Shown: positions 258 through 21,487 of the stretch, piece by piece
Layout of the letters: every line of letters begins with the position of its first letter
Numbering within the stretch: position 1 is the stretch's first letter
Origin: Trichormus variabilis 0441
Lineage (GTDB): Bacteria; Cyanobacteriota; Cyanobacteriia; Cyanobacteriales; Nostocaceae
Length of the DNA: 64,000 bases
NCBI RefSeq assembly: GCF_009856605.1
Contig: NZ_CP047242.1
Location: 5,646,501-5,710,500, forward strand
Reading direction: 5' to 3'
Translations under genes and position numbers: made by a program
Notes under the pieces: generated by a model
Database searches by the model: none
Told to the model about the DNA's origin: nothing
What the model saw: only the letters and a program-made list of their open reading frames with translations

Positions 258-436
258 GTGCTTTAACATTAGATGTCGTTAGGCGTTGAGCAGGGGGCTG
301 GGTCATCATATTGATCTCGCTCAGTCCGGGTGCTTTAACATTAGATGTCGTTAGGCGTTGAGCAACGATCGCAACCCTTGATTCATGAAATGCTTGGTAG
401 CGTGCTTTAACATTAGATGTCGTTAGGCGTTGAGCA
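258..436. CRISPR. Short CRISPR array, 3 identical 35-bp repeats, 2 spacers of 37 bp
   Basis: Identical 35-bp repeats lie at 258-292, 330-364 and 402-436 with a strict 72-bp period. They begin GTGCTTTAACATTAG and end GGCGTTGAGCA. The two spacers (293-329 and 365-401) are unrelated to each other. The repeat ends are partly complementary (GTGCT...AGCA). No cas gene is inside the window, so the subtype cannot be read directly; cas genes, if linked, lie left of position 1. The AT-rich 1-200 side and the diverged repeat at 204-242 make the left side the more likely leader side, but orientation is not certain. The next plus-strand gene is a tnsD/tniQ-type transposition gene, a neighbourhood typical of CRISPR-associated Tn7-like elements. 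Confidence 0.9.
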
Positions 437-506
437 GGATTCCCAGAGGCGAATGTATTTACGGGTTATTGTCTTTGCTAGAAATATGTTGTCAGTGAAG
501 CCAAGA

Positions 507-925
507 TTAGCCCTCTTGATTACCATCATTCCGAGAAATTTTACTGAGAATTTTTTCCCACTGCTGAATCTGGTTCTGTATTTGTAATTGGGGATGGGCT
601 TCCCCCCGCCGTAGGCGATCGCTCAAATCTTGACTATCATCAACAGACAAATCCTGACCGCTCAATCGCTCACGGTAAAGAGCAATCAGTTCGGTTAGGG
701 CTTTTTTATTGCTTGATTATCCTCCTGGGTCAGAGAACTCACATTGACTGGGATCAGCTTTCTGCCAATTCTCTCGACAAACTCAGACCGACTTAAATCC
801 ATGCTGTCAGCGATCGCATCTAATCCATCAATCCCGGTAGGAGTTAGGGCTAGGTTAACTCTCTTCTTTACCTCATCGTACAGTTCTGGTACGTCTTTTT
901 GACCTTTTTGCCCTTTCTTACCCAT
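507..925 (-). pseudogene. Small DNA-binding-like protein broken or recoded at a -1 slippery heptamer
   Basis: The 76-residue first part (925 down to a stop at 695) has a basic Gly/Lys-rich start and a segment LALTPTGIDGLDAIADSMDL followed by SRSEFVERIGRK, reminiscent of ribbon-helix-helix or CopG-like proteins; I do not recognise a named family. The frame ends just after the sequence A AAA AAG (complement of 702-708), and the -1 frame then stays open for about 60 codons (ALTELIALYRERLSGQDL...) to a stop at 507-509. The full product would be about 138 residues. Either one A was lost from a run of seven, making a pseudogene, or the ribosome shifts -1 on this canonical heptamer. The gene is divergent from tnsD, and twin palindromes lie between them. 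Confidence 0.6.
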
Positions 926-1010
926 TGCCGTCTACTTTTTACATTCCTCCCAATCATAGTAAACACATTCAGCACTTTAAGTTATACATTAAAACTTTTT
1001 CCAACAGGTT

Positions 1011-1064
1011 AGGTATTGTGTAATGCCTGAGTTGGTTGGATAATATAGGTATTGCGTAATGCCT
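1011..1064. promoter_or_regulatory. Twin 18-bp imperfect palindromes upstream of tnsD
   Basis: AGGTATTGTGTAATGCCT (1011-1028) and AGGTATTGCGTAATGCCT (1047-1064) differ at one base and start 36 bp apart. Each has dyad symmetry AGG-ATT....AAT-CCT. They sit in the intergenic space between the divergent small gene (507-925) and tnsD, the expected place for a shared operator. No cognate regulator is identified. Confidence 0.6.
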
Positions 1065-1220
1065 AAATAGTCATTTTTTTAGGGATATGAGTAACTAATA
1101 CCACCGTTTGGCTTGCCAACATCTAAACGGCTTACTTTTCATGGGCAATCATTAATTGCTGGTTATGTAATTCAAATTAATAAAAATCTGCTAAATGATT
1201 TGGTCATTTTTAACAACTAT

Positions 1221-3131
1221 ATGGTGAGTTTTTTCCCTCAACCTTATCCAGATGAAATTTTATATAGTGTTATTGCTCGTTATCACATTAGAAGTGGCAA
1301 TACGAGTCCAAAAATTACATTACAAGATTTATTTAAGTCACAGACTACTGTGGCGACAGTAGATTTACCATCGAACCTTAGTAATTTAATTAAAAACCTA
1401 CAATTTATCTCAAATTACCAAGTTGAAGAGTTGATATATAAACATACTCTCTACCCTTTATATAGCCCTTTTTTGCCAGCAAACAGGTCTAGTCAGGTAC
1501 TGGAATCTATGAAAGGAGATTATGGGGGAGATATTCATACAAGAGCCGGAATTATGGCAAGCTCAATTACTATGCCGAAATATTTGCGGTTTTGTCCAAC
1601 TTGCTGGGAAGAAGACTTAAAAAATTATGGCGAACCTTACTGGCATCGCATCCATCAAATACCAGGGATTTTAGTTTGTCCATTTCATGGTGAAGTTTTG
1701 CAAGATAGCCTAGCTCCTTTACATGGTTTTAATAAGCATGAATATTATGCAGCTAGTACAGACAACTGTTCTATTACTAAAGAACCCAGTATTCTTAGCC
1801 CTGACACACTGAAAAAATTACTAATATTAGCCAAAGATTTTTGGTGGTTACTCAATAGTGAAATACCTTGCCAAGAGCCACAGTGGTTTCGCAAACAGTA
1901 CACAAATCTGATGATTGAGCAGGGTTTTGCAACTCCAACTGGTCGAATTTACCAGAACAAACTACTAGATAATTTTTTGTTCTTTTATGGTCAAGAAATG
2001 CTCAGTGCTGTTGATTCAATGGTAAATCATAATGATTCAAACAACTGGGTTACTAGCATCGTCAGGAAATATAGGAAATCTTTCCATCCTCTTAGACATC
2101 TGCTAATGATGCGTTTTTTGAAAACATCAGTAGAGGAATTTTTTCAAAAAGATACTGAATACAAGCCTTTTGGCGAACCCCCCTGGTTGTGTCTCAATGC
2201 TGCCGCAGAACATTATCTACAACCAGTGATTACCAATTTAGTCATTACTTTATGCTGCGATACAAAAAAGCCTGTCGGTACTTTTTCTTGTGCTTGCGGA
2301 ATGGTTTATTGCCGGACTGGGCCTGATGAAACGGATGAAGACAAAGTTCGCATTGGTAAAGTCAAGGCATTCGGTCAAATATGGGAGCAAAAGCTGAAAG
2401 AATTGGTGGAAGTTGAAAAGTTGGGTTTGCGGGAGACAGCCAGAAGATTAAATGTTGATGCCAGAACTATCAAACGTTATGTATCTCGTCTAAAATTGAC
2501 AACTTATTGGCAGACTAGAACAGAAAATGACTCTGTAGGCTTACAGGGAGTCCCAGAAATAGATCCCAATTTTGCAACTGAACTCAAATTAAAACACAGG
2601 CAAAATTGGATGGCTTTACAAGTACAGAACCCTGAAGCTTCAAAGACAACTCTGAGAAAACTAGTACCAGCCACCTATATTTGGCTATACAGGAATGACA
2701 GAGAATGGCTCAATCAAAACTCACCCACTTTACAAGTTGCCGTTCCTTCCGTTGTGAGAGTTGATTGGCATGAGCGAGATCAGCAAATTCTCGCTCAGGT
2801 TCAAGATGCAGTGCGATCGCTACTTAAGGCTGATATACCAGAGAAAATTTCTATTAGTAGGGTAGGGAAAACTATCGGCTTACTTGCATTACTCGAAAAA
2901 CATCTCGACCAGATGCCTTTAACAAAGGCTTATTTGGAATCAGTCGTTGAAACTGTAGAAGAATTTCAGATGCGCCGGATCAAGTGGGCAATCAAGCTGC
3001 TTGATGAATGTGGAGAAGAAATTATGCGCTGGAAGGTAGTCAGAGTTGCTGCTTTGCGAGAGGATTGCTCCCAAAGAGTCAGTGCATTTCTGGAAAGTGA
3101 ACTGGAGAAAGCATACAAGAAAGAGAGGTGA
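1221..3131 (+). CDS. tnsD: TnsD/TniQ-family transposition target-selection protein
   Basis: The product is about 636 residues with start ATG at 1221; a reading frame open further upstream adds 36 non-conserved residues, whereas MVSFFPQPYPDEILYSVIAR is the usual TniQ/TnsD N-terminus. A zinc finger CPTC (C125, C128) ... CPFH (C153, H156) follows, the signature of this family, and a helix-turn-helix-like stretch (LGLRETARRLNVDARTIKRY) lies around residues 400-420. TnsD proteins bind an attachment site and recruit TnsC and the TnsAB transposase. At this length it is longer than Tn7 TnsD and fits the long TnsD of cyanobacterial Tn7-like elements. tnsA/B/C are not in the window and would have to lie to the left. 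No strong Shine-Dalgarno precedes 1221. The family is confident; activity is not known. Confidence 0.9.
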   Translation: MVSFFPQPYPDEILYSVIARYHIRSGNTSPKITLQDLFKSQTTVATVDLPSNLSNLIKNLQFISNYQVEELIYKHTLYPLYSPFLPANRSSQVLESMKGDYGGDIHTRAGIMASSITMPKYLRFCPTCWEEDLKNYGEPYWHRIHQIPGILVCPFHGEVLQDSLAPLHGFNKHEYYAASTDNCSITKEPSILSPDTLKKLLILAKDFWWLLNSEIPCQEPQWFRKQYTNLMIEQGFATPTGRIYQNKLLDNFLFFYGQEMLSAVDSMVNHNDSNNWVTSIVRKYRKSFHPLRHLLMMRFLKTSVEEFFQKDTEYKPFGEPPWLCLNAAAEHYLQPVITNLVITLCCDTKKPVGTFSCACGMVYCRTGPDETDEDKVRIGKVKAFGQIWEQKLKELVEVEKLGLRETARRLNVDARTIKRYVSRLKLTTYWQTRTENDSVGLQGVPEIDPNFATELKLKHRQNWMALQVQNPEASKTTLRKLVPATYIWLYRNDREWLNQNSPTLQVAVPSVVRVDWHERDQQILAQVQDAVRSLLKADIPEKISISRVGKTIGLLALLEKHLDQMPLTKAYLESVVETVEEFQMRRIKWAIKLLDECGEEIMRWKVVRVAALREDCSQRVSAFLESELEKAYKKER

Positions 3132-3173: not shown

Positions 3174-3476
3174 TTAGGCCGCGTCGGCTACCAGTAAGCC
3201 ATTTATAGCGATGATGATGATTTGCGCTGCTAAAGGAGTATCACAACGTGGTCTATCGTCGCTATTACAGGGTTGTGCTACCCATTTACCCTCCAGATTT
3301 TGGTAGAAAGTGCCGAGAAGTTGAGAACCATTCCAAACACGGTAAAGCTCCCCAAATACTTCGGATACCGAATCAATCTCAATTTCTGGTGCTTCTGGGT
3401 CGGCAAGGTGTTCAATATACTCCTCAAACTCTGAGTCAGTCGAGGCTGAGTTTCTAAACTCATCTTGTACAATCAT
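3174..3476 (-). CDS. Hypothetical acidic protein, about 100 aa
   Basis: The frame is open from 3506 (TTG), but ATG at 3474-3476 is preferred because GAGG lies 8 nt before it on the minus strand. The product has an acidic N-terminal half (EFEEYIEHLADPEAPEIEID) and a C-terminal half (YRVWNGSQLLGTFYQNLEGK) resembling small hypothetical proteins common in Nostocales. There is no recognisable enzyme motif, signal peptide or membrane segment. It converges on tnsD and lies just downstream of the HTH gene on the same strand, with a strong hairpin between them, so it is probably a separate transcript or attenuated from the HTH gene. Confidence 0.55.
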   Translation of the reverse strand: MIVQDEFRNSASTDSEFEEYIEHLADPEAPEIEIDSVSEVFGELYRVWNGSQLLGTFYQNLEGKWVAQPCNSDDRPRCDTPLAAQIIIIAINGLLVADAA

Positions 3477-3504
3477 CTGAGTAACCTCATTGATGGGGTT
3501 TAAC

Positions 3505-3548
3505 AAAAGGCGATCGCATTTCTCTTCCCGGAGGGGCGATCGCCTTTT
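3505..3548. terminator. HIP1-based hairpin, bidirectional terminator-like
   Basis: AAAAGGCGATCGC (3505-3517) and GCGATCGCCTTTT (3536-3548) form a perfect 13-bp stem built from two HIP1 sites, with T-runs outside the stem on both strands. It lies between the HTH gene (stop at 3609) and the small gene starting at 3476, so on the minus strand it could end the HTH transcript. Confidence 0.6.
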
Positions 3549-3608: not shown

Positions 3609-3902
3609 TTATTCAGTCACTTCCACCGTGCTAAGAAAATCCTTTAAAGAAATACCCAAAGCCAAGCAAACAGCCTCTAAGACTTTTATGGAGACGCTTT
3701 CAGATTCGCCATACTCTAATTTTTTCAGGTTTTGATGAGAGCATTCCCCACCCTTAGCCGAAATTTCATCTACCAATTTCTGCCGGGACTTTTTACCACG
3801 TAGACGCTTTAAAACTTCTGCTCTGTCTTTATTCCAGGTTACAGAAACAACGTCTGCAACATAAATATACATTTTAGTTTCTTTATTCCTTTCATTGGTC
3901 AT
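3609..3902 (-). CDS. Cro/C1-type HTH regulator, possible controller of the R-M locus
   Basis: The product is 97 residues from ATG at 3902, or 87 if the ATG at 3872 is used (AAAGGAA lies about 12 nt before it). The region SRQKLVDEISAKGGECSHQN followed by LKKLEYGESESVSIKVLEAV is a classical HTH_3 arrangement (helix-turn-helix, then L-x-K-x-E and LEAVCLALGI). It is transcribed away from hsdM. Two copies of an 18-bp operator-like sequence lie in the intergenic region between it and the hsdM promoter. Small HTH proteins of this kind act as controller proteins in some R-M systems; that role here is inference from position. Family assignment is confident, the regulated target is not. Confidence 0.8.
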   Translation of the reverse strand: MTNERNKETKMYIYVADVVSVTWNKDRAEVLKRLRGKKSRQKLVDEISAKGGECSHQNLKKLEYGESESVSIKVLEAVCLALGISLKDFLSTVEVTE

Positions 3903-4099: not shown

Positions 4100-6184
4100 T
4101 TGACCCCAGAAGAACTAAAACAACTTGAAGCGAACCTTTGGCAAAGTGCTGATACCCTACGGGCAAACTCAGACCTGAAATCTAGTGAGTATTCTACGCC
4201 CGTGATGGGGTTAATATTTCTCAAGTTTGCTGATAACAAATATCGCCAGTATGCGGCAGAGATTCAGCAAGAATATGAAGCACTCAAAGGAACTCGCAGA
4301 GAAAAGGCGATCGCCGAAATTGCCATTGAGAAGTGTGGGTTTTATCTGCCAGACCATGCTCGTTATAACTATTTGCTCAACCTACCAGAAGAGGAAGATA
4401 TCGCCAAGGCTATCAAAGCGGCGATGGTGTCCATTGAATCATATAAGCCAGAACTTAAGGACACCTTACCCCAAGATGAGTATTTTCGGCTGACGCGCAC
4501 AGACAAAGGTATTCCGAAGCAACTGTTAAAAAACTTCTCGAATATTCCTGAAAATGCTACTGGGGATATGTTCGGGCAGATTTATGAGTATTTTCTGGGT
4601 AATTTTGCTCTCTCAGAAGGGCAGGGTGGAGGTGAGTTTTTCACACCGCGTTCTGTGGTGCGGTTGATGGTAGAAATCATTGAACCTCATCAGGGGACTG
4701 TGTTTGACCCCGCTTGTGGTTCTGGGGGAATGTTTGTCCAGTCTGCTCAATTTATTGAAGAACAGCGCAAAAAGTTAAATCAGTCTGCTGCTGACGATCT
4801 GTTTGTCTATGGGCAAGAGAAGACCCTGGAGACGGTGAAGTTGGCAAAAATGAACATTGCAGTCAATGGGTTACGGGGCGATGTGCGTCAGACAAATACG
4901 TACTATGAAGACCCGTTTGGCAGTTTTGGCAAGTTTGATTATGTCCTAGCTAATCCGCCATTTAATGTGGATGATGTTAATCTTAGCCGAGTGGAAATCG
5001 ATGCTAGATTTAACACCTACGGTATCCCGCGCAATAAGACTAAGGGGAAGAAGCAGGAACAGGGTAATGAGACTGTACCTAATGCCAATTATCTTTGGAT
5101 TAATTTATTTGCTACATCGCTAAAACCCAAGGGTAGGGCGGCGTTAGTAATGGCTAATTCGGCATCAGATGCGCGTCACTCTGAAGCAGATATTCGCCAA
5201 AAGCTAATTGAAGAAAATTTGATTTATGGGATGCTGACGCTGCCATCAAATATGTTTTATACGGTGACGCTACCTGCAACTCTGTGGTTTTTTGATCGGG
5301 GCAAGACGGATGATAAAATTCTGTTTATTGATGCGCGAAATATTTTTACTCAGGTTGACCGCTCACATCGGGAGTTTTCCACAGAACAAATTAGTAATAT
5401 TGCTATTATCAGCCATTTGCGCCGGGGTAGGAGCCATCGGTTTATTGAACTGATTAATAATTATTTTCAGCAAGGGATGGTGAAGCTAAGAGAGAATCAA
5501 GCACAGGTGCAGCAAGTTTCCCAGCAGTTAATCACTGTGTTGAATGATGGAATGGATGATATTAAAGCTAGGGAAGCGGCTGTTGATTTTCTCAATTTGT
5601 GGGATGATTTGCCAGATTTAGAAATTCAGTATCAAGGTTATTTAGATAAATATAATTTTCCAGAAATAAATATAGAAATACAAAATCAAGCACAGCAAGA
5701 ACTCAGTGCGGCATTTAAACCATTTTTTGATGACATCCATCTGGGATTGAAGCAGCTTGATAAAACTATCCGCGCCCATGAAACGGCTTTGGCAGAAAAA
5801 GCAAAGGAAGAGGGGAAACGGGGACAGATTGACAAGCAAGTTAAGACTCTCAAAGCCACGCTGGAAACGCTGCATACAGATGTAAAATCGGCAGAATCAT
5901 TTTTTATCCACATTCGCTGGTTACAGGAACGTTTCCCGAAGGCAGAATATGAGGATGTGACGGGGTTGTGTAAGTTGGCGACTCCCGCAGATGTGAAGGA
6001 ACAGGATTATTCCCTAAATCCTGGGCGGTATGTGGGGGTAGTGATTGAGGAAGATGGGAAGACGGAGGAGGAGTTTATTGAGGAGATTTTAGGGTGGAAT
6101 ACAGAGTTAGAAAAGCTGAATCAGGAAGCAATAAAACTAGGAGACGTAATACGTCACAATATTCAGCAGTTAGTAGGGGAATAA
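4100..6184 (+). CDS. hsdM: Type I restriction-modification DNA methyltransferase subunit
   Basis: The 694-residue product begins with the HsdM N-terminal helical domain (LEANLWQSADTLRANSDLKS). SAM-binding motif I DPACGSGGMF lies near residue 203 and the N6-adenine methylase motif NPPF near 285. The long C-terminal part is helical with coiled-coil character (residues about 480-600). The start codon is TTG at 4100; an in-frame TAA lies at 4064-4066 and no ATG or GTG lies between. No good ribosome-binding site is visible. HsdM methylates adenine in the recognition sequence together with HsdS and is also needed for cleavage by HsdR. hsdS starts 6 nt after its stop. Confidence 0.95.
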   Translation: MTPEELKQLEANLWQSADTLRANSDLKSSEYSTPVMGLIFLKFADNKYRQYAAEIQQEYEALKGTRREKAIAEIAIEKCGFYLPDHARYNYLLNLPEEEDIAKAIKAAMVSIESYKPELKDTLPQDEYFRLTRTDKGIPKQLLKNFSNIPENATGDMFGQIYEYFLGNFALSEGQGGGEFFTPRSVVRLMVEIIEPHQGTVFDPACGSGGMFVQSAQFIEEQRKKLNQSAADDLFVYGQEKTLETVKLAKMNIAVNGLRGDVRQTNTYYEDPFGSFGKFDYVLANPPFNVDDVNLSRVEIDARFNTYGIPRNKTKGKKQEQGNETVPNANYLWINLFATSLKPKGRAALVMANSASDARHSEADIRQKLIEENLIYGMLTLPSNMFYTVTLPATLWFFDRGKTDDKILFIDARNIFTQVDRSHREFSTEQISNIAIISHLRRGRSHRFIELINNYFQQGMVKLRENQAQVQQVSQQLITVLNDGMDDIKAREAAVDFLNLWDDLPDLEIQYQGYLDKYNFPEINIEIQNQAQQELSAAFKPFFDDIHLGLKQLDKTIRAHETALAEKAKEEGKRGQIDKQVKTLKATLETLHTDVKSAESFFIHIRWLQERFPKAEYEDVTGLCKLATPADVKEQDYSLNPGRYVGVVIEEDGKTEEEFIEEILGWNTELEKLNQEAIKLGDVIRHNIQQLVGE

Positions 6185-6190
6185 CAATTT

Positions 6191-7408
6191 ATGAATTGTA
6201 TAGAATTGAGTCTTGCTGATACTTGTGAATTTATAAATGGAGGTGCATGGTCTGATAAAGAGTATGTAGAAGCCGGAATTCCTGTTGTAAAAGTCACTAA
6301 CATGGTTGATGGCACAATTGAAACTAATAATCTTAGCTATCTACCATTATCAAGTTCTGATAAATACAAAAAACATTTATTATTTGTTAACGATTTAGTA
6401 GTTACCACTGTTGGCTCTCATCCAACACAACCGGGGTCAGTAGTTGGTAGAACGTCAGTTGTACCACAACATTTTGATGGAGCTTTTCTAAATCAAAATG
6501 CGGTATGTATTAGAGTCAAATGTAAAAATTTAATATCTCCAAAATTTCTGATATATATATCTAAAACTATATTATTCAAGCATCATATTGAATCACGAGC
6601 TAGAGGTAGTGCAAACCAGGTAAGGATGGCACTTGGAGAGTTGAAAAAATTTACATTCAAATTTCCCCCTCTTCCGGTTCAGAAAAAGATTGCGGCGATA
6701 CTTTCTGCTTATGATGACCTGATTGAAAACAATAATCGCCGTATTGCCATATTAGAAAAAATGGCTGAGGAAATCTACCGCGAGTGGTTTGTGCGTCTGC
6801 GCTTTCCGGGTCATGAACAGGTTAAGTTTAATAAAGGCATCCCGGAGAGTTGGGAGAGAAAAAGGTTCGATGAATTTTGTCTACTCCAGCGTGGGTATGA
6901 TCTACCAGATACTCAAGTAATTCCTGGTCAATATCCTGTTATCGCGTCAACTTCAATTAAAACTTACCATAATCAATTTAAAGTTAACCCTCCAGTAATT
7001 ACAACTGGTCGTTCAGGCTCTTTAGGCATAATTTTATTCATCAATAGTCAAGCATGGCCTTTAAACACGACATTATTTGTAAAAAACTTTTATGGTAATT
7101 CACCCTATTTGATTTACTACACACTAAAATTCTTAAAACTTGAGAATTTTAATTCTGGTGCTGGTGTACCCACACTAAACAGAAATCATTTAGGTGGACT
7201 ATATATGTCCGTTCCTCCTAAAAGCCTGCAAAATAATTTCAATGACAAAATTGCAATTCTCTTTAAGCAAAAAGAGCTTTTATCAAAGTCAAAGAATGCA
7301 CTTATTGAAATACGCGATCGCCTACTAACTCGTCTTATCTCAGGTAAGCTTTCCGTCGAAGACTTAGACATCCAATTCCCGCCCAGCATGACAGAAGAAT
7401 TAAAATAA
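6191..7408 (+). CDS. hsdS: Type I restriction-modification specificity subunit
   Basis: This 405-residue protein has two target-recognition domains, each followed by a conserved helical spacer. The central spacer reads PPLPVQKKIAAILSAYDDLI and continues to YREWFVRLRFPG (about residues 158-215). A second TRD (about 216-350) ends with KNALIEIRDRLLTRLISGKL. HsdS fixes the bipartite DNA target and bridges two HsdM and two HsdR subunits. It follows hsdM by 6 nt, so the two are cotranscribed. TRDs are the variable part of such systems and the recognition sequence cannot be read from sequence alone. Confidence 0.95.
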   Translation: MNCIELSLADTCEFINGGAWSDKEYVEAGIPVVKVTNMVDGTIETNNLSYLPLSSSDKYKKHLLFVNDLVVTTVGSHPTQPGSVVGRTSVVPQHFDGAFLNQNAVCIRVKCKNLISPKFLIYISKTILFKHHIESRARGSANQVRMALGELKKFTFKFPPLPVQKKIAAILSAYDDLIENNNRRIAILEKMAEEIYREWFVRLRFPGHEQVKFNKGIPESWERKRFDEFCLLQRGYDLPDTQVIPGQYPVIASTSIKTYHNQFKVNPPVITTGRSGSLGIILFINSQAWPLNTTLFVKNFYGNSPYLIYYTLKFLKLENFNSGAGVPTLNRNHLGGLYMSVPPKSLQNNFNDKIAILFKQKELLSKSKNALIEIRDRLLTRLISGKLSVEDLDIQFPPSMTEELK

Positions 7409-7433
7409 ATAGTAAGATTTGGAATTTCCCTAG

Positions 7434-7679
7434 ATGAGCGTCACAATTCCCGATGATATCCTCAGAGCATCAAACATGACAGAGGATGAACTGAAATTAG
7501 AAATTGCTATCTTGCTTTACCAGCAAGGTAAAATTAGCAGTGGCAAAGTCCGAGCATGGACAGGAATCACAGTCCTGGAATTTCAGCATGAATTAGCCAA
7601 ACGAGGTTTACACATTAACTATGATGTTGAAGATTTCCAATCTGATATAAAGACACTGCAATCAATGGGTTTGCTGTGA
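7434..7679 (+). CDS. UPF0175 family antitoxin-like protein
   Basis: This 81-residue protein (MSVTIPDDILRASNMTEDEL start, then LLYQQGKISSGKVRAWTGIT) matches the UPF0175 family, small helix-turn-helix-like proteins found next to PIN-like toxins. It starts 25 nt after hsdS and its TGA stop overlaps the GTG start of the next gene by four bases, the usual antitoxin-toxin coupling. Embedding inside an R-M operon may stabilise the operon; that is inference. Confidence 0.85.
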   Translation: MSVTIPDDILRASNMTEDELKLEIAILLYQQGKISSGKVRAWTGITVLEFQHELAKRGLHINYDVEDFQSDIKTLQSMGLL

Positions 7680-8173
7680 TTATAGTTAGCGATACATCAC
7701 CAATCACAAACTTAGCCGCGATTGGTCAGTTAGATTTATTGCGACAGCTGTATGGTAGCGTTATCATCCCTGAAGCTGTATATAACGAGATGGCTAGTGT
7801 CAATAAGATTGTCCCTGGTGCAGTAGAGGTACAAACTTTATCTTGGATTCAGACACAGACAGTTATGAATTCTCTACAAGTCACAGAAATTCAAGAGAAT
7901 AACGAAAGTATTCACTTGGGAGAAGCCGAAGCAATTATTTTGTCCTTAGAAATGAAAGCTGACCTGCTCTTAATGGATGAACGCAGAGGACGAATAGTAG
8001 CTACCAATTATGGAATTAATGTAACAGGTCTGTTGGGAGTCTTGCTACAAGCCAAAAAACAGGGGCTAATTCCAGTTATTAAACCATTGATTGATCAGTT
8101 AATTACCCAGGCAGACTTTAGAGTTAGTCCTCAGTTGTATACCGTCGTCTTGCAAGCATCTAACGAGGTTTAA
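7676..8173 (+). CDS. DUF3368 PIN-like nuclease (toxin)
   Basis: The product is 165 residues from GTG at 7676, overlapping the antitoxin by 4 bp. It opens with VSDTSPITNLAAIGQLDLL, containing the first acidic residue of the PIN fold, followed by conserved E in PEAVYNEM, the central LGEAEAIILSLE segment and LLMDERRGR, all typical of DUF3368 proteins. These are predicted Mg-dependent ribonucleases paired with UPF0175. All acidic positions look intact. The pair sits between hsdS and hsdR and reads in the same direction. Confidence 0.85.
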   Translation: MIIVSDTSPITNLAAIGQLDLLRQLYGSVIIPEAVYNEMASVNKIVPGAVEVQTLSWIQTQTVMNSLQVTEIQENNESIHLGEAEAIILSLEMKADLLLMDERRGRIVATNYGINVTGLLGVLLQAKKQGLIPVIKPLIDQLITQADFRVSPQLYTVVLQASNEV

Positions 8174-8304
8174 ACCTTGGATCAAACCACTGCCGACAAA
8201 GCGGTGTGAAATCACTACACATTTATACAGCCAAAGGTTAAAATTTGTACATCGGGAGAGTATAAATATCTAAAACGGTCATTACCGTGTAGTTTTCCTA
8301 AACT

Positions 8305-11300
8305 ATGCCTAACTTTATTTCTGAAGATGACATCGAACAAGCGGTACTTGCCAAATTAAAGCAGCAAGGCTTTAAATTACTCAACTGCTTCACAACCAAC
8401 CCCGACGATCTCAACGACAGATCCAACCGCACAGATAAAAGCGAGGTCATTTTTAGCGATCGCCTGAAAGCAGCAGCAATTCGCCTCAACCCCAACTTAC
8501 CAGCAGAAGCGATCGCCCAAGGTTTAGAAACTCTTACCAATAAACGCCAGTTGATGTCTCCCATCGCCGCAAATCGGGAAATAGACAGGCTAATTCGTGA
8601 TGGTATCCCCATTGAATATGAAAACGCCCAAGGTAGAAGCGAACACGGGAAAGTGCGCTTAATAGATTTTAATGACTTGAGTCACAACGGAAATAATGAA
8701 TATTTAGCCGTTTCCCAACTTTGGATTAAAGGAGAAAGAAACTATCGCCGTCCTGATATCTTGCTATATATCAACGGTTTACCCCTGGTTTTCATCGAAC
8801 TAAAAAACTCCAACGTCAAACTGCAAACAGCCTTTGACGACAACCTCAGCAACTACAAAAAAGATATTCCTCAACTCTTTCTCACCAACGCCTTCTGCAT
8901 TCTCTCCAACGCCCTAGAAACCAAAATTGGCAGTTTTACCGCAGAGTGGGAACACTTTTTTAACTGGTTACGGGTGGAAGATGAAAAGGAAAAAATAGAT
9001 CGTCAGCAGATTCAAGAATCTGGTACTAGCCTAGAACTAGCTATAGATGGGCTTTGTCACCCTTCTAAACTACTCGACTACATCGAAAACTTTATTCTCT
9101 ATCACAAAGAAACTCAGAAAATCATCGCCCAAAACCACCAGTTCATCGGTGTGAATCGCGCTATTGATGCTTTTGACCACCGGGAAGTAAAACAGGGCAA
9201 ATTAGGAGTTTTCTGGCACACACAAGGCTCTGGTAAAAGCTTTTCGATGATTTTTTATGCCCGAAAGATTTTCCGCAAGCTCACGGGCAATTTTACCTTT
9301 GTGATTATTACCGACCGCGATGATTTAGATGGGCAGATTTACCGCAATTTCTTAAACACCGAAACAGTCAAAGAGAAAGAAGCAGCTCGACCCAAAAACA
9401 GTAAACAACTCCGGGAGTTTCTTTCCCTCAACAAGCGAATAGTTTTTACCCTGATTCAAAAGTTCCGCTACGAGAAGGGGGAGGAGTATCCCATATTGAG
9501 CGATCGCAATGACATTATTGTAATTGTCGATGAAGCACACCGCACCCAGTATAAAACCTTAGCGGAAAATATGCGGGCAGGTTTACCCAATGCCAATTAT
9601 CTCGCCTTCACAGGTACTCCCCTATTAGGTAAAAAGCGCAAGACTAACGAATGGTTTGGGGATTATGTCAGCGAGTATAATTTTTCTCAGTCAGTAGATG
9701 ATGGCGCAACCGTCCCCCTGTTTTACCAGAAGCGAGTACCAGAGGTACTGATTCAAAACGAGGATTTAAGCGAGGAATTTTACCAAATCCTTGAAGATGA
9801 AAACCTTGATGACACCCAGCAAGCCAAGCTAGAAAGGAAATTTGCCCGCGAAACCGAAGTTATTAAACGTGATGATAGGTTAGAGACAATAGCAAAAGAT
9901 ATTGTTTACCACTTTCCTCGTCGTGGCTATCTTGGTAAAGGCTTGGTGGTTTCTCTTGATAAATTCACTGCGGTGAAAATGTACGACAAAGTACAGTACC
10001 ACTGGAAAGCAGAAATTAAAAATCTGGTGGGACGAATTAAGAAATCTAGTAATGATATTGAGAAAATTCGCCTGAAAAAGATTCTCGACTTTATGCGAGA
10101 AACAGAAATGGCTGTGGTGATTAGTCTGGAAGGAAGCGACAGCGAAGTTGAAAAATTTGCGAAACAAGGACTTGATATCAAACCCCACCGCGAAAGAATG
10201 AATACCGTTGATGCACAGGGACATGATATCGAGTATCAATTTAAAGATGAGGAAAATTCCCTGCGGTTGGTGTTTGTCTGCGCCATGTGGCTGACGGGTT
10301 TCGATGCGCCCACTCTCTCGACGCTTTACCTTGACAAGCCCATGAAAGACCACACGCTGATGCAAACTATCGCCCGTGCGAACCGCATCACCTCATATCA
10401 GATTCACAACGTCACCAAAACCAACGGCGAAATTATTGATTATTACAACGTCTTCCGCAACATGAAGCAAGCCTTGGCAGATTACGCTTTGGGCGATGAT
10501 GGAGACAAAGAAGACTCACCCATTCAAGAAAAGTCTAACCTGTTTGAGTTACTTGATGATGCGATCGCCCAAGGACTGAATTTTTGTCGGGAACTGGGGA
10601 TTGATTTAGAAAGCATCCTCAAAATTCAGGAAACTTTCGAGAAATTAGGACAATTTAACCAGTTTGCTGACACTCTACTGCAAAAAGATGAATGGCGTAA
10701 AGGATTTTTTGTCTATCAAAATACTATTACCTCACTCTATGAAGCCTGTAAACCAGAGATAATCAAGAAACCACGTCCATTGGTTTTCATCTTCCAATAT
10801 CTGCGAGGGGTGATTGATAGCATCATTGAACGCAAAGATATTGACCATGCAAGTTTAAAAATTGCGGAACTGCTAGATGAAAGCGTAGTTGCTGATAATC
10901 AAGGAATTACCACTAAAGAATATAGTGCAGAATACAACATTATCCAGACAGGTCAAGTCTGGGATTTAAGCAAAATTAACTTCGAGCAACTCAAAGCCGA
11001 ATTTAGCTACAAACCCTATAAAAATATTGAAATTACCGATTTACGCAGTTTTATTGAAGACAAGCTGAACAAAATGATTCAGCAAAACACCACCCGCACC
11101 GACTTCGCCCAAAGGCTACAAGCCATCATTGACAAATACAACGCTGGTGGTTCATCAATTGATAACTACTACGAAGCTCTGGTTAATTTTACAGAAAACC
11201 TGAAAGCAGAAGCAGAAAGACATATTCGGGAAGGCTTAACAGAAGACGAATTGGAACTATTTGATTTACTCAAGAAAGACAAAATGACTGCGGAGGAAAC

Positions 11301-11544
11301 TCAAAAAGTCAAATTAGCTGCACAGTCTCTCTTGCATCGACTCATAGCAGAACAACCAAAAGTCTTAGTGCAAGATTGGTATAAAGATATGCAGAGCCAG
11401 CGCAGAGTGCAATCCGTAGTTGAAGCAGTTTTAGATCAAAACCTGCCTGAAAGCTATGATAGAGCGTTATTTAAGTTTAAATGCGATACAGTATTTGATT
11501 TGATGTATGACCACGCTAGCAAAGGTTCAAAGTGGGCGGGATAA
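8305..11544 (+). CDS. hsdR: Type I restriction endonuclease subunit R
   Basis: The 1079-residue product has the three-part HsdR plan. An N-terminal PD-(D/E)xK nuclease is visible (RRPDILLY with D near 150, then FIELKN near 164-168). A DEAD-box translocase follows with Walker A HTQGSGKS (about 305-312), DEAH at about 409-412 and TGTPL motif III. A C-terminal helical region binds the methylase. The gene is full-length and intact. It is separated from the toxin gene by 131 bp that may contain its own promoter (TATAAA around 8261). HsdR translocates DNA and cuts unmodified sites. Together with hsdM and hsdS this is a complete type I system. Confidence 0.95.
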   Translation: MPNFISEDDIEQAVLAKLKQQGFKLLNCFTTNPDDLNDRSNRTDKSEVIFSDRLKAAAIRLNPNLPAEAIAQGLETLTNKRQLMSPIAANREIDRLIRDGIPIEYENAQGRSEHGKVRLIDFNDLSHNGNNEYLAVSQLWIKGERNYRRPDILLYINGLPLVFIELKNSNVKLQTAFDDNLSNYKKDIPQLFLTNAFCILSNALETKIGSFTAEWEHFFNWLRVEDEKEKIDRQQIQESGTSLELAIDGLCHPSKLLDYIENFILYHKETQKIIAQNHQFIGVNRAIDAFDHREVKQGKLGVFWHTQGSGKSFSMIFYARKIFRKLTGNFTFVIITDRDDLDGQIYRNFLNTETVKEKEAARPKNSKQLREFLSLNKRIVFTLIQKFRYEKGEEYPILSDRNDIIVIVDEAHRTQYKTLAENMRAGLPNANYLAFTGTPLLGKKRKTNEWFGDYVSEYNFSQSVDDGATVPLFYQKRVPEVLIQNEDLSEEFYQILEDENLDDTQQAKLERKFARETEVIKRDDRLETIAKDIVYHFPRRGYLGKGLVVSLDKFTAVKMYDKVQYHWKAEIKNLVGRIKKSSNDIEKIRLKKILDFMRETEMAVVISLEGSDSEVEKFAKQGLDIKPHRERMNTVDAQGHDIEYQFKDEENSLRLVFVCAMWLTGFDAPTLSTLYLDKPMKDHTLMQTIARANRITSYQIHNVTKTNGEIIDYYNVFRNMKQALADYALGDDGDKEDSPIQEKSNLFELLDDAIAQGLNFCRELGIDLESILKIQETFEKLGQFNQFADTLLQKDEWRKGFFVYQNTITSLYEACKPEIIKKPRPLVFIFQYLRGVIDSIIERKDIDHASLKIAELLDESVVADNQGITTKEYSAEYNIIQTGQVWDLSKINFEQLKAEFSYKPYKNIEITDLRSFIEDKLNKMIQQNTTRTDFAQRLQAIIDKYNAGGSSIDNYYEALVNFTENLKAEAERHIREGLTEDELELFDLLKKDKMTAEETQKVKLAAQSLLHRLIAEQPKVLVQDWYKDMQSQRRVQSVVEAVLDQNLPESYDRALFKFKCDTVFDLMYDHASKGSKWAG

Positions 11545-11705
11545 AAGGTATTAATTTTAACAAGCTTTCTAGCTTATAAACTAACGCACAAAAAAACAAC
11601 CTCTTTCAATATGTCCTTTTAGCTGTCAGCAATTATTGAGGAAAGTAGGTTGGGATACGTCACTGGATCTAAGCGTAAAAACAATCACTGATTAAGAAAT
11701 AAGTA

Positions 11706-11846
11706 GTGTTAGCTAAGAAGAAAAATAGCAACCCAGAAATCAAATATAGTGTGTTTAAAAATTTGGGATGGGTGCGGTTAGAGCAAGGTAAGAATAAAGA
11801 AGCACAACAACGTCTGCAAGCTTCAAAAATGTTTCGATTCCTTTAA
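11706..11846 (+). pseudogene. TPR protein fragment
   Basis: A 46-codon frame, preceded by an in-frame stop, translates to a stretch containing YSVFKNLGWVRLEQGKNKEA followed by QQRLQAS, a clear tetratricopeptide-like repeat in isolation. TPR repeats do not work alone, so this is probably the remnant of a deleted TPR or TPR-CHAT gene. It lies in the 500-bp gap between hsdR and ietA, which otherwise shows no gene. Confidence 0.45.
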
Positions 11847-12045
11847 TGGGATAAATTTAAGTCACTAGATATACTACGGTATCCTCTTGAAGCTTTACTA
11901 TAAAGTAGTTCACAACTTTATACTGAATTGGTTTTTGGAGACAAATATAATATCTTAGTGCTAAAATATCTAGTTTTGGTCTTTAATAGTACAATTGATC
12001 TACATCAATGAGGATAGACCAGTTATCCAATAGCAGTTCTAAAGT

Positions 12046-13092
12046 ATGGCTCGCGGTGAAATTCTCAGAAAACTCTTTAAAAGCTTCTCTCGCAACGAGA
12101 GAGAAGAGTTTTTGGCTGCGGCTCAAGAACTGATTGAAGAAGAAAGAAATAAAAATCACATCCTGCTGGCTAGAGATTTGGAAAAACTGCTTCAAAATGG
12201 CAATGGCTACACTAAACCCCTAGCATCTAACCTAGCTCCCTGGCATCAGTTTCCTGAACCACCTAAAGATAAAGACACTGGACTAGCTTTACTGGATGTC
12301 AAGCGATTTGACCTGACATGGGATAATATCGTCCTCAGTGAAAAAATTTTTGATATCCTGCAAGAAATTGTTCTGGAAAACCGTAAGCAAGACATCCTTG
12401 CAGCTTATAACCTCAAACCCAAAAACAAACTACTCTTTTGTGGGCCACCAGGTTGTGGCAAAACCCAAACCGCAAAAGTTCTTTCTAGTGTCTTGAGTTT
12501 ACCCCTTGTTTATGTCAACCTGACAGCAGTATTTTCTTCTTACTTAGGTGAAACAGCAACCAATCTTCAGAAAATTTTTACATACATAGAAAAAGGCGAA
12601 TGGCTGGTTTTATTCGATGAGTTTGATGCGATCGCTCGTGATCGAGATAACTTAAATGAACATGGTGAAGTCAAACGTCTAGTCAATAGCTTGTTACAAC
12701 TCATTGATAATGCAACTAATCAAAGTATATTTGTTGCTGCTACTAATCACGAAAAACTATTAGACAGTGCAGTTTGGCGACGATTTGATGAGGTGATTTT
12801 CTTTGACAACCCAACACTAGAATTACGCACGGCTCTTTTAAGCCGTTATCTGTCTGGTATCCGTTATACTGCTATTAATCTATCTACTTTTGCAGAACGG
12901 CTAGAAAATGCTACTGGAGCAGATATAGAACGTATTTGTTCTGATGCAATTAAAGCCGTAATTCTACGTGGGGAGCGTACCTTGAGAGCTGATGATTTAG
13001 AAGTTGCGATAGGACGTTTTTTAGAAAGGCAAAGTATAATATCAAACTCAAAATTATCATCTAAGTCAAATCCTAATGGTAAGTCAGTTTGA
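12046..13092 (+). CDS. ietA: AAA+ ATPase, IetA-like component of an anti-phage pair
   Basis: This 348-residue AAA+ protein has Walker A CGPPGCGKT (about 132-140), Walker B LVLFDEFDAIA (about 185-195), a sensor/arginine-finger region WRRFDEV, and the N-terminal linker LARDLEKLLQNG common to these ATPases. Its stop overlaps the following subtilase gene by 17 bp. AAA ATPase plus S8 protease is the layout of IetAS, first described on an Agrobacterium plasmid and later reported as an anti-phage system. The assignment rests on the pairing and domain type, so the name is provisional. The ATPase probably gates or feeds the protease. Confidence 0.8.
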   Translation: MARGEILRKLFKSFSRNEREEFLAAAQELIEEERNKNHILLARDLEKLLQNGNGYTKPLASNLAPWHQFPEPPKDKDTGLALLDVKRFDLTWDNIVLSEKIFDILQEIVLENRKQDILAAYNLKPKNKLLFCGPPGCGKTQTAKVLSSVLSLPLVYVNLTAVFSSYLGETATNLQKIFTYIEKGEWLVLFDEFDAIARDRDNLNEHGEVKRLVNSLLQLIDNATNQSIFVAATNHEKLLDSAVWRRFDEVIFFDNPTLELRTALLSRYLSGIRYTAINLSTFAERLENATGADIERICSDAIKAVILRGERTLRADDLEVAIGRFLERQSIISNSKLSSKSNPNGKSV

Positions 13093-15559
13093 ACACCTTA
13101 AATTACCGAGAATAATCAATATCGAATTACCACGACGATCTCATGGTGGAGGTGGTGGTGGAAAACGCGCTGATTTTATTGAACATGGTAAGCATTTATT
13201 AGATCAACTTTCTGGACTGACGGAACGTACCAAGCAAAAGAGCAACCCTTTCCGCCTTGATCCAAAATTAATTTTTAAGATTAAAGTTACTAAAAAACTT
13301 TCAGACGATCTAGTTAATCAGACAGGATTAGATATCCTAGCATTTGAGCCTGATAAAGCCATAGTTGTCTTCTCGTCTGATCTGGAGTTAAAAGAATTTA
13401 GGAGACGTTTAGAAAATTACAGTCATATTACAGAAGGACACGAATATTCATATTTAGGAGCGATTGATGAGTTAGTCCCCCTCGAACGTGAAGATCGCAT
13501 TGGTCGTTTGTTAGAGTTAAAGCCTGTACAACTAGGTGAACTTGCAGCTTTAGATTTAGAATTATGGCACACAGGCGATCGCCAAGAAATGAAAGTTTCT
13601 CTAGAACATATTGCTGAAACAATAGAGTACTTTTCCAGCGATACTGCTCCTATGAGAATGAGTGATAGTTACGTTGGTGAATATCTGTGTATAGCTAGAA
13701 TTAAAGTCACTCACGAAGTTTTAGAGTTTTTACTGGAACTCGAAACTGTCAAAGAAATTGATCGTCCTCCCCAACCTGCATTTGAGAGAACTGCCGATTA
13801 TAATTTACCAATTTCCCGTATACCCGAAGTTATTTCTCCACCTGAAGATAATTGCGGCATTCTTGTTATTGACTCAGGTGTACAAAGAGGTCATCCCTTA
13901 ATTGCTCGTGTACTCGGTGAAGCTGATGTATTTCCAGATCCAGCACAGCAATTAATAAGAGGTGGTGCAGATGATGTACATGGACATGGTACAAATGTTG
14001 CTGGCATTGCTATATATGGAGATGTCGAAAATTGTATTAAAAAACTGTCATTTGATCCAACAGTTTGGTTATTTTCTGCTCGTGTAACAGATGAAAACTG
14101 CGAATATTATGAGGATCTTCTCGTAGAAACTCAACTAGATCAAGCCATTCGTGCTTTTGTAGATCAGTACCCTAACTGCAAAGTCATAAATATTTCATTA
14201 GGTAATGCTAAACAAATCTATAGAGATGGAATGAAGCAGTTTCGATTAGCAGCAAAAATAGATGAAATTGCTTATCAATACCAAAACCAAAACAAAAATA
14301 TTATTTTTGTGATTTCAGCAGGAAATTCTTATCATGAAGAGTTAGGGTATGAACAATTACGAACTGAATACCCAAATTATTTACTGAATAAGAAGGCCCG
14401 AATTATTGATCCAGCAACTTCTGCGATCGCACTAACTGTAGGTTCTTTATCTTATGGACGTGGTAGTATGACAGAACCTGGTGATGTGCGTCGTCAGGCG
14501 ATCGCAAAATTACGAGGATACCCTTCTCCCTTTACCAGAACTGGTTTTGGAGTAGATGGTATGATTAAGCCTGATGTTGTAGATTTTGGTGGAGATTTAG
14601 CATTAGACCTTAGTTATCGAGAAGCGTTAGGTTTGCCTAAAGTTAGTCAATTAGAAGATAATGTAGCTGGGATTTCTGTTGTTACTTTCTCCAAAAATTT
14701 CCAAAGTTCTTTATTTAATATCTGTAGCGGTACAAGTTTTGCTGCACCTCGTGTAGCTAACATTGCTGCTCAACTCTTCACAAAATATCCAAATGCCAGT
14801 TCTAACCTCATTCGAGCATTAATTGTCAATTCTGCGGTGCTTCCCAAAGAAATTCCAGATGAATTTAGTAAGGGTACAGAATCTAAAAAAATTAAAAAGC
14901 AGCTACAAATCTATGGCTATGGACAGACTGATTTAGAACGTGCAATGTATTCTGCTGAAAACTATGTTGTTCTATCTGAAGATAATATTTTTATTCCAGT
15001 GGGCAAGTTCCATATTTATGAAATCCCCCAACTACCAGAGGAATTTTTTGATATAGAAGGTACCCGCACATTATCAGTTACCTTGGCCTTTGATCCTCCA
15101 ACTCGTCCAACTCGTGGCGACTCATATTTAGGGGTAACTATGGAATTTAATATTTTTAAAGGTATTGACAAGGAAAGTGTCGTAAATGCCTATGTAGATG
15201 CAAGTAGAACAGATAAGCCTGGTGAATTTGCAGAAATACCAATAAAAAATTTGAAGAAAAAATATCCAAAACGTAGTATTACTATTGATTTATCCCCAGG
15301 TTCCAATCTTCGTAAGAAAGGAACTGTACAAAGAGGTCAAACACAACTAAAGTCAGGAGCTAAGAAATACAATAATTTACCGATGACTTTGGTGGTGAGT
15401 TGTAATCGTAAATGGGCAAATCCAGATGAAATTGAAATCCAACGTTATGCTTTAGTTGTTAGCGTCAGTCATTCCGATCCGCAAGTTAATTTATATAATC
15501 GTCTAAAACTAAAGGTTGATGAGATTGATCTAAGAGAAAGAAGCCGAGCAAGGATTTAA
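13076..15559 (+). CDS. ietS: Subtilisin-like serine protease, IetS-like
   Basis: This 827-residue S8 peptidase has its catalytic triad visible: Asp266 in VIDSG, His304 in GHGTNVAG, Ser554 in GTSFAAP, plus the oxyanion Asn in VISAGNS. No signal peptide is seen, so it acts in the cytoplasm, unlike secreted subtilases. An N-terminal region of about 250 residues without obvious protease motifs may regulate it, and a C-terminal beta-rich region (about 640-820) follows. A Gly-rich stretch (GGGGGG) occurs near residue 25. It is translationally coupled to the ATPase gene by a 17-bp overlap. Substrate is unknown. Confidence 0.85.
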   Translation: MVSQFEHLKLPRIINIELPRRSHGGGGGGKRADFIEHGKHLLDQLSGLTERTKQKSNPFRLDPKLIFKIKVTKKLSDDLVNQTGLDILAFEPDKAIVVFSSDLELKEFRRRLENYSHITEGHEYSYLGAIDELVPLEREDRIGRLLELKPVQLGELAALDLELWHTGDRQEMKVSLEHIAETIEYFSSDTAPMRMSDSYVGEYLCIARIKVTHEVLEFLLELETVKEIDRPPQPAFERTADYNLPISRIPEVISPPEDNCGILVIDSGVQRGHPLIARVLGEADVFPDPAQQLIRGGADDVHGHGTNVAGIAIYGDVENCIKKLSFDPTVWLFSARVTDENCEYYEDLLVETQLDQAIRAFVDQYPNCKVINISLGNAKQIYRDGMKQFRLAAKIDEIAYQYQNQNKNIIFVISAGNSYHEELGYEQLRTEYPNYLLNKKARIIDPATSAIALTVGSLSYGRGSMTEPGDVRRQAIAKLRGYPSPFTRTGFGVDGMIKPDVVDFGGDLALDLSYREALGLPKVSQLEDNVAGISVVTFSKNFQSSLFNICSGTSFAAPRVANIAAQLFTKYPNASSNLIRALIVNSAVLPKEIPDEFSKGTESKKIKKQLQIYGYGQTDLERAMYSAENYVVLSEDNIFIPVGKFHIYEIPQLPEEFFDIEGTRTLSVTLAFDPPTRPTRGDSYLGVTMEFNIFKGIDKESVVNAYVDASRTDKPGEFAEIPIKNLKKKYPKRSITIDLSPGSNLRKKGTVQRGQTQLKSGAKKYNNLPMTLVVSCNRKWANPDEIEIQRYALVVSVSHSDPQVNLYNRLKLKVDEIDLRERSRARI

Positions 15560-16224
15560 ATAATAAAAACCTAATATTTACCGTAATGAGAATTATATAT
15601 TTTTTTGTCTAAGTACCGATAATTCAGGAGAGTCATAGCTGACTATGGATGTCGAGTGCAAGATTATATGTGATCGCACAAGTTTCGACAATGTGTGGTG
15701 ACAAGATGGCGATCACAGAAAGTGCGATCTCATTGATACATCCCATTGATACTAAGAGCAATTAGCTTTGCAGATGGAAATTAATTACTGCTAATACAAT
15801 GATTTGGCTGTTACTGGGGAGCAATCATAATTGAATCTAAACACTAATAGTGATAAATCTTTACTGAGCTTGATTTTTAAGAATTATACAACTTTTTTAT
15901 TTATAAATAATAGCTGCGCTCAACAAATTATACAACTTTATTTTCTGAGACTTAGATGAACTAGAATGTAAATGTAGGGCTTATAGGCTTATAAATTATA
16001 TAATTTTTCTATATTTTTACAAGATATTTTGGATTAAAATAGCGTAATTAATTTTTAAGCTGAAGTTATTATATAACAATTCGTTGTTGATGCTTCAGCT
16101 TCTTTTTTAACTGGCAATCGCTTGACTTTAAACATTACAACAAAGAGCATATTAAAATTTTTATTCTTCCGTAAGCTTTAATTGGAAGGCGAGAGCGCGG
16201 TTAAGAGCGCACAATAAAGAGTTG
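15560..16224. other. AT-rich 665-bp intergenic stretch with three related motifs
   Basis: No gene is seen. Three related AT-rich motifs start at 15882 (AATTATACAACTTTTTTA), 15926 (AATTATACAACTTTATTTT) and 15994 (AATTATATAATTTTTCT). Repeats of this sort can be transposase binding sites at a transposon end, but they are low complexity. A hairpin terminator lies at 16057-16107. Genes on either side point towards the gap (ietS plus, 449-aa gene minus). Confidence 0.4.
16057..16107 (+). terminator. Hairpin with T-run between convergent genes
   Basis: AAGCTGAAG (16057-16065) and CTTCAGCTT (16093-16101) are a perfect 9-bp inverted repeat with a 27-nt loop, followed on the plus strand by CTTTTTT. 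It could end ietAS read-through, although it is about 500 bp after ietS and the loop is long. Confidence 0.45.
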
Positions 16225-17574
16225 TTAGCGGCGAATTTTTTTAAATAATATCCAGGCTATTATACTGGTAAGCACTCCAGCAACAACGCTTCCACCAAAG
16301 ACTGCTGTCAGGAAAAAAGGTGTTTCTTTTTGTGGTGGATATTGGCTTACTAATATTGAAGATGCGATTTGGCTGATTGCTAACCCGATACCAACACTAC
16401 CGATAATATTTTCTAAATTGCGATCGCTTTTAGTTCGCTCAATATCGATAATACCTTGTATGGTCTTAATGTAATTTTCCATTAATGTTAAACCAGGGCT
16501 AAAGTTAGCTTGGTCAGTTTCGATTTGTACTAAAAACTTTTCGTTAGCATAGTTGCTGAATATTTGCAAAAATTCCCAATCGCTATTACTATCTAACTTT
16601 ATTAGTTCTTGGTAACGTTTTTGATAATTGTTGATGTTTACTTCTATGGTGCGTTTTTGGTCATCTAAATACGCTAAGTTATTAGTATATTTTAATAAGA
16701 TTTCTGGGGTGTTTTTCAGAAAAGTTTCTAATTCATTAATTTTAATATCTGGTTTTTTCAAGTTAGCATTCAAATTATTCACAATAGCTTGTGCTAGGTT
16801 AGCTGCTTGTTTTAAATTATCTTTAATTTCCTGACTTTGAGAATTAGCCCAATAAATTTTATGGCGGTATCTTAAAAGTCGGAGCAATTGAGGAGATAAC
16901 TTGCTATTAATTTCCCTAATTGCATCTGTTTTAATTTGATCAGGAAACAAACAAATTAATAGATGATAACTATCATGCAAGTTTTGTGCTTTTGCTGGAA
17001 GTCGTTGCAGTTCAAATATAGTTCCACCAAAAAACTTACCTTGACCGATAAAATCATTTTGCCAATTTTGCTGCGGATGTAATTTTAATTGGGCAAAACA
17101 TTCTTGTGCTGTGGCTTGGGGGTCTTGATTATCTGTAGATAACTGGCCCCAAATTAACCAACTTTGACCAAGGTTGCCATGTTGGTTATTTATTTTATTC
17201 AGAATTTCTGTTTGTAAATTATGCAAACAATCAATAGATTGCGGAGAGTATTTGTAATCGGATATATAGTTAGCAGTACAGTCTACTTGCAGTGCATAAG
17301 TATCTCCCATTTGGACGGGATAGTAATAACCATTTAAAGGACTGGGAAAAATTTCATATTTTTTATGACCTAGTAATTCAACATAATCTAAACTATCTGT
17401 TTCTGCTTGGGCTAGTTCTGCAAGCTGTTTACTATCTAACTGATTACCATAAACTTTTTGCCAAAAAAGTTGCCGATTTTGTTTGAGTTTTTCTTCATCT
17501 TGTCCCAAACCAGCTTTAAGGTCATAAAGAAACAAATCGAGGGTGGGATAAATTAATTGATAATTTTGATTCAT
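16225..17574 (-). CDS. Helical protein with C-terminal transmembrane hairpin, unknown function
   Basis: This 449-residue protein has no family I can name. Its N-terminal half is mixed alpha/beta with a Tyr-rich segment ([20 protein letters not shown]). The middle (about 240-370) is predicted helical or coiled coil. Two hydrophobic segments close the protein: [19 protein letters not shown] and [20 protein letters not shown], followed by a KKIRR tail, so the bulk should face the cytoplasm with the C-terminus anchored in the membrane. It is the last gene of the minus-strand run after the CHAT gene and the 140-aa gene, 67 bp downstream of the latter. A membrane effector released or activated by the CHAT protease is a reasonable hypothesis only. 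Confidence 0.75.
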
Positions 17575-17641
17575 AATGTTTTTGTTTCGCGTAAAGACGC
17601 AAAGAAAGACGCTATAATTATGACTTTGGCAAGAAGTCTAT

Positions 17642-21084: not shown

Positions 21085-21327
21085 CTGCCGCAATCATGTA
21101 TCGCTTTTATGATACATTCTAGCAATTTTACGGTTGGTCATTGGTCATTGGTTATTGGTAAGCGTTTCCGGGATATTTACGTTTTGTAATCACGAATAGA
21201 TTCTTGATTGCAAGATGAATTGCGATCGCATCTTTGTCGCACAGCAGAACTTTCTCAAATAATTTTGAACTTATGGAATTACTCAAAACCTTTATCAGTA
21301 ATGGATTCAAACAATTGTTTAACCGTT

Positions 21328-21444: not shown

Positions 21445-21487
21445 CCGAATTCTTTGTCTACAAATATTTGTAGAGTAGATAAGATAA

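Follow-up and report, generated by a model that had tools for sequence, protein, structure and literature searches.

Does a short CRISPR array that lies beside a tnsD gene belong to the same mobile element as that gene, or are the two chance neighbours? The question arises near the left edge of the window analysed here, a stretch of 64,000 nucleotides (C1:5646501-5710500, on one of the five contigs of a genome totalling 7.1 Mb). An earlier note, made from the letters of this stretch, had proposed a type I-B-like CRISPR-associated transposon (CAST), with its tnsABC, tniQ and cas genes to the left of the window. We are highly confident that array and tnsD are parts of one complete type I-B1 CRISPR-associated Tn7-like transposon downstream of glmS, almost certainly the published AvCAST (Tn7743). 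The element measures 31,369 bp, from TGT at C1:5636594 to ACA at C1:5667962; the far end is position 21462 of the window.

Components of the element

The 20 kb on the left of the window (L007, C1:5626501-5646500, of which position 20000 is the base before window position 1) contain the following features, numbered within those 20 kb:

8187-10088, + strand: glmS
From 10094: glmS-side transposon end, with TnsB-like sites at 10109, 10129 and 10149
10225-11040, + strand: tnsA (Tn7 TnsA match, 2.6e-49)
11063-13291, + strand: tnsB (PDB match to Tn7 TnsB, 5.2e-112; no Pfam match at 0.001)
13278-14948, + strand: tnsC (Tn7 TnsC match, 1.1e-70)
14956-15906, + strand: tniQ (316 aa, covering the first 107 positions of the TnsD model)
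16075-16758, + strand: cas6
16776-18314, + strand: cas8 (match to PDB 8fcj, 7e-93)
18373-19347, + strand: cas7 (NCBIfam TIGR02585, 8.6e-34; no Pfam match at 0.001)
19349-19981, + strand: cas5

All of the tnsABC, tniQ and cas genes predicted on this side are present, within 10 kb of the window and in the order tnsA-tnsB-tnsC-tniQ-cas6-cas8-cas7-cas5; by their NCBIfam names, the cas genes form a type I-B/MYXAN set. In alignment with Tn7, TnsB keeps three acidic residues (D-D-E) and TnsA keeps E, D and K, which we take to be the catalytic residues of the two proteins. The TniQ of 316 aa fits the description of I-B1 TniQ as a truncated TnsD in the accessible text of a 2024 review (PMC11406308). 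Within the window, the element and its far end comprise:

258-436, + strand: CRISPR array, three identical 35-nt repeats and two 37-nt spacers
695-925, - strand: 76-aa ribbon-helix-helix (RHH)-like protein, candidate repressor of tnsD, between the array and tnsD and divergent from tnsD
1011-1028, no strand: candidate operator 1, palindrome AGGTATTGTGTAATGCCT
1047-1064, no strand: candidate operator 2, palindrome AGGTATTGCGTAATGCCT
1221-3131, + strand: tnsD, homing target selector (636 aa, ATG at 1221; Pfam TniQ 3.5e-32, and TnsD 4.4e-126 over the whole TnsD model)
3174-3506, - strand: 110-aa ORF after tnsD (no Pfam family; 95% and 77% identical in two relatives)
3609-3902, - strand: 97-aa Cro/C1-type HTH protein (HTH_26, 4.3e-8; 97% and 91% identical in two relatives)
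4100-11544, + strand: cargo, type I restriction-modification (hsdM, hsdS, hsdR) with a UPF0175/DUF3368 pair inside
12046-15559, + strand: cargo, IetA AAA ATPase and IetS subtilase (PADLOC IetA 3.4e-91, IetS 1.1e-125)
16225-21093, - strand: cargo operon, TPR-CHAT protease, 140-aa protein and 449-aa protein
21314-21462, - strand: distal transposon end, three spaced TnsB-like sites (21314, 21379, 21436) and an ACA terminus at 21462

The adjacency of array and TnsD-type gene that had been described from the letters holds on closer inspection: the array at 258-436 is followed at 1221-3131 by a gene with both the TniQ domain and the full TnsD model. The array repeats lie at 258-292, 330-364 and 402-436, with spacers at 293-329 and 365-401. 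Searched at up to three mismatches, the repeat has three matches in the 7.1 Mb genome, all of them in the array, and a reversed control has none. Both spacers match only the array itself, with no target in 217 family genomes (up to three mismatches), in viral contigs or in plasmids.

The description as a "type I-B-like CAST" was right, and the subtype is I-B1: tnsA and tnsB are separate; tnsC and a short TniQ derived from TnsD are present; Cas5, 6, 7 and 8 are of type I-B; the array lies within the element; TnsD is present and the insertion is just downstream of glmS; and the Tn7-like TGT/ACA ends carry several TnsB-like sites each, compact at the att side. The separate tnsA and tnsB and the glmS site rule out a type I-B2 CAST, which has a fused TnsAB and a tRNA-gene site. 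A Pfam scan found no Cas1, Cas2 or Cas3 among the eight left-hand tns and cas genes or among 13 of the element's 18 ORFs in the window that reach 80 aa (the other five overlap scanned genes); the sole Cas1 found in the genome, at C1:160419, is far away from the element. Prototypic Tn7 is the nearest classical system: the best PDB matches are Tn7 TnsA, TnsB, TnsC and TnsD, and both elements have the glmS site and one compact plus one spaced end. Unlike Tn7, the present element has no TnsE in the scanned ORFs, and carries Cascade, TniQ and an array instead. By analogy with the published mechanism, TnsD, the likely selector of the glmS insertion site, would recognise glmS and recruit TnsC and TnsAB for homing, and a complex of TniQ with Cas5-Cas6-Cas7-Cas8 would use the array guides, sending the element to other DNA.

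The defence cargo that had been noticed after tnsD was confirmed over about 18 kb (3.2 to 21.3 kb), and much of it is anti-phage genes; in the accessible text of one source, no other defence cargo is as common in Tn7-like elements as restriction-modification (PMC8649781). For the 449-aa protein of the TPR-CHAT operon, a long helical stalk is predicted and there is a weak match to a CorA-like fold; hydrophobic stretches are visible by eye towards its C terminus. Its relatives occur in 144 of 207 family genomes, and of 24 such loci of other genomes, viewed over 1.5 kb per side, 22 have the 140-aa gene next to it and 19 a CHAT domain. PADLOC has no match for the 449-aa family and weak matches only for the TPR-CHAT protein; the three-gene operon is a candidate protease-triggered membrane effector. 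Another CHAT-domain protein, of 849 aa, is encoded outside the element (window 44729-47278).

Transposon ends and the insertion at glmS

The terminal inverted ends that the earlier note had suggested seeking were found beside glmS and at window 21462. The motif CGRTTNAACAAT occurs just after glmS in three copies, 20 bp apart (0.02 expected in that 20 kb), and at window 21314-21447 in three inverted copies about 60 bp apart (0.11 expected in the window), with none elsewhere in the left 20 kb or the window. These sites are probably bound by TnsB. The compact end faces glmS, an orientation toward the target side that appears usual in the accessible portion of the 2024 review (PMC11406308).

Of 12 other genomes of the genus, three (G006, G010, G011) have empty sites: there glmS is followed immediately by the right flank of the element, across the 1-1.5 kb compared. 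In two more (G001, G005), the right flank matches beside glmS for only about 55-65 bases, and in the remaining seven there is no match to the right flank beside glmS. The comparison with the three empty sites fits a single insertion of array, tnsD and cargo together. It also exposes an irregularity at the left edge: at all three empty sites the right flank begins at base 22 after the glmS stop, and the left flank of the element ends 5 bases after that stop, so that 16 host bases (6-21) are missing. No bases are repeated between the left flank (to base 5) and the right flank (from base 22), and the target-site duplication that had been anticipated is lacking, with no 5-bp duplication at the element edges. 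If the insertion was normal, the left copy of the duplication may have been lost afterwards in a small deletion adjoining the end.

On the right of the element lies a gene for a NACHT-HEAT protein (window 21592-25053), with NNH2, NACHT and many HEAT repeats, whose HEAT-coding DNA shows a repeat period of about 93 bp; since this flank is also found at the three empty sites, it is not cargo. In G009 (L026), G003 (L028/L089) and G008 (L033/L090), glmS is followed directly, as judged by eye, by Tn7-like sequences that resemble ends or are decayed, with at least two types of end among them. What is probably a decayed copy lies no more than about 3 kb from glmS in G003, where a fragment of tnsA (50% identity over 50 residues) and fragments of cas6 (84-90%) were seen. 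The glmS site looks like a repeated landing point.

Ordinary Tn7-like elements are marked by tnsD alone, and the array is short with spacers that match nothing except itself, but the idea that a plain Tn7-like element and a stray or defence CRISPR array are unrelated neighbours here can be set aside as extremely improbable: cas5-cas8 are present without cas1, cas2 or cas3 in the scanned ORFs, a short TniQ accompanies TnsD, the gene order is the same in relatives, and the empty sites support the arrival of array, tnsD and cas genes in a single insertion.

Identity with AvCAST and mosaic relatives

In the accessible texts of two papers, AvCAST (Tn7743) is the I-B1 CAST of A. variabilis (PMC11406308, PMC12719977). 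What it has in common with the present element is the subtype, the glmS site and a TniQ together with a glmS-type TnsD (as far as set out in the accessible text of PMC11406308), and also the repeat end: the accessible part of a 2026 table gives GCA for the CAST of T. variabilis ATCC 29413 (PMC13199841), and the repeat here ends in GCA as well. Among the plasmids, contig C4 and plasmid B of ATCC 29413 are both 35,762 bp long, and they are identical over 8,162 bases at the best place of a 10,000-base query; for contig C2, a 20,000-base query matches plasmid A without a difference in its first 10,047 bases, and a transposon fragment of C2 is identical across 3,300 bases to plasmids A and C. Because these plasmids match T. 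variabilis ATCC 29413, the source of AvCAST, the element is almost certainly AvCAST itself, as judged from plasmid-level identity and the repeat end GCA. On the strength of this match we count it as already known, its kind having been described from the same cyanobacterial lineage.

It is unlikely that the strain is instead a near relative of ATCC 29413 carrying an I-B1 element of its own. The difference in length between C2 (362,032 bp) and plasmid A (366,354 bp) would allow it, and the comparison is one of plasmids, not of the chromosome; against it stand the equal size and the identity of C4 and plasmid B, the identity of C2 to plasmid A, and the fact that the two TnsD-family matches found genome-wide are both inside the element.

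The plasmid contig C2 also bears a Tn7-like gene set of its own (L003, at about 88222-91521), annotated as TnsA-like and ATP-binding proteins, with identical copies on ATCC 29413 plasmids A and C and relatives on plasmids of other Nostoc strains.

A TnsD match was found in two of the 12 other same-genus genomes, in full in G002 and as a fragment in G004. The I-B1 CAST of Nostoc parmelioides FACHB-3921 (L035, apparently G002) occupies the same glmS site, and we compared it with the present element in 200-base windows of DNA. Identity is 94-99% in glmS and 64-81% in tnsA-tnsB; from about 60 bases into tnsC through tnsD, with the array excepted, it is mostly 94-100%, with a lowest value of 88%. 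The two elements differ in TnsA and TnsB (63% and 67% identical as proteins), in their end sequences and in their cargo. The TnsB-like site beside glmS has a different sequence in FACHB-3921, and at its probable far end (C46:722-834) this different motif recurs three times, spaced and inverted, with two mismatches to a near-end copy in each case. This pattern suggests that the transposon ends changed together with tnsAB. A different division is seen in Calothrix membranacea FACHB-236 (L036): tnsD is 92%, cas5 90% and cas7 76% identical, and tnsC, tniQ, cas6 and cas8 are 63-67% identical. Going by these identities, blocks appear to have been exchanged between relatives with different breakpoints.

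A candidate regulator divergent from tnsD

What might the small gene between array and tnsD do? Its 76-aa product matches Pfam RHH_1 at 0.018, below the cut-off, and has a weak HicB-like antitoxin match (0.055); among 71 relatives, three are named ribbon-helix-helix or CopG and three carry Pfam PF01402 (RHH_1). RHH matches of some kind, most of them weak, occur in 106 of 207 family genomes, and the wider RHH family is therefore not CAST-specific. Near-full-length relatives with at least 72% identity are confined to 12 of the 207, the present genome included. At ten of these 12 loci tnsD stands divergent beside the RHH gene, and at ten a cas gene and at least three repeats lie on its other side; L093 is cut by a contig end, L103 has tnsD with no array in view, and L096, whose RHH gene is 95% identical, lacks tnsD, any cas gene and the palindromes over a distance of 1.5 kb. 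None of 13 weaker RHH loci has tnsD in view, though L104 has cas genes and repeats. In L106 and L107, where the palindrome pair is absent, RHH relatives (59-65% over 51-58 residues) adjoin tnsA-like genes that belong to other Tn7-like elements.

The palindrome form AGGYATTNNNNAATRCCT was written from the present window after seeing it, and before counting. The pair (34-36 bp apart, up to three mismatches per site) is found at all ten loci with divergent RHH and tnsD genes and in 0 of 3000 dinucleotide shuffles; these loci fall in two related groups (L092, L094, L095 and L097; L098-L103) and so are not ten independent tests. The palindromes stand out in the intergenic region, the second half of which shows little conservation from one group to the other, though a stretch near the RHH start is conserved as well. 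No such pair occurs in L096, L104, six further weak RHH loci that were checked, or L093, which the contig end cuts. Within the element, at up to two mismatches, the form occurs at these two sites only. Between the RHH gene and tnsD no sigma-70-like promoter was found (1.6 expected).

We consider it somewhat more likely than not that the RHH-like protein would bind the two palindromes before tnsD and repress both tnsD and itself, which would leave homing on only in some states. It is possible, if doubtful, that the gene is left over from an antitoxin or works on behalf of the array, and that the palindromes are promoter parts and not its operators. The weak HicB-like match and the occurrence of the gene without tnsD in L096 speak for that explanation; the palindrome pair, present at all ten divergent loci and absent from L093, L096, L104 and the six weaker ones, argues against it and for repression of tnsD. 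The 97-aa HTH protein encoded after tnsD is a candidate second regulator.

Regulators have been credited to V-K and I-F3 CASTs in the accessible text of the review (PMC11406308). Those of V-K CASTs, some of them RHH proteins, sit upstream of cas12k in reverse orientation (PMC9938897, accessible text). The arrangement of Arc_1, Arc_2 and CvkR in that text is alike, a gene for a small DNA-binding protein in reverse orientation upstream of a target-selection gene; theirs is upstream of cas12k, whereas here it is upstream of tnsD in an I-B1 element, and the likeness is one of arrangement. In position the RHH gene thus departs from the V-K Arc-type regulators. In the literature searched, which was seen in part and mostly without subscription papers, we found no regulator of I-B1 CASTs; one may be in print elsewhere.

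The discovery value of the element itself is low because it is a known CAST, and the analysis fixes its boundaries, cargo and insertion site. The new leads are the RHH-like regulator with its palindromes and the mosaic exchange. If both elements are active, the mosaics suggest that an almost unchanged TnsC functions with TnsA and TnsB proteins that share only 63-67% identity. The repressor matters because regulators are named for V-K and I-F3 CASTs and none for I-B1 in the texts found, as far as these were accessible; its predicted operators are directly testable, and its presence or absence could affect the performance of AvCAST as a DNA-insertion tool. More generally, we lean toward the view that I-B1 CASTs carry a dedicated RHH repressor, divergent from tnsD and with two tandem palindromic operators, that would gate TnsD homing versus RNA-guided jumping, and that RHH and tnsD would be exchanged as one module, tnsAB and the ends as another. 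If true, this would add another class of CAST to those, V-K and I-F3, that have independently captured a regulator.
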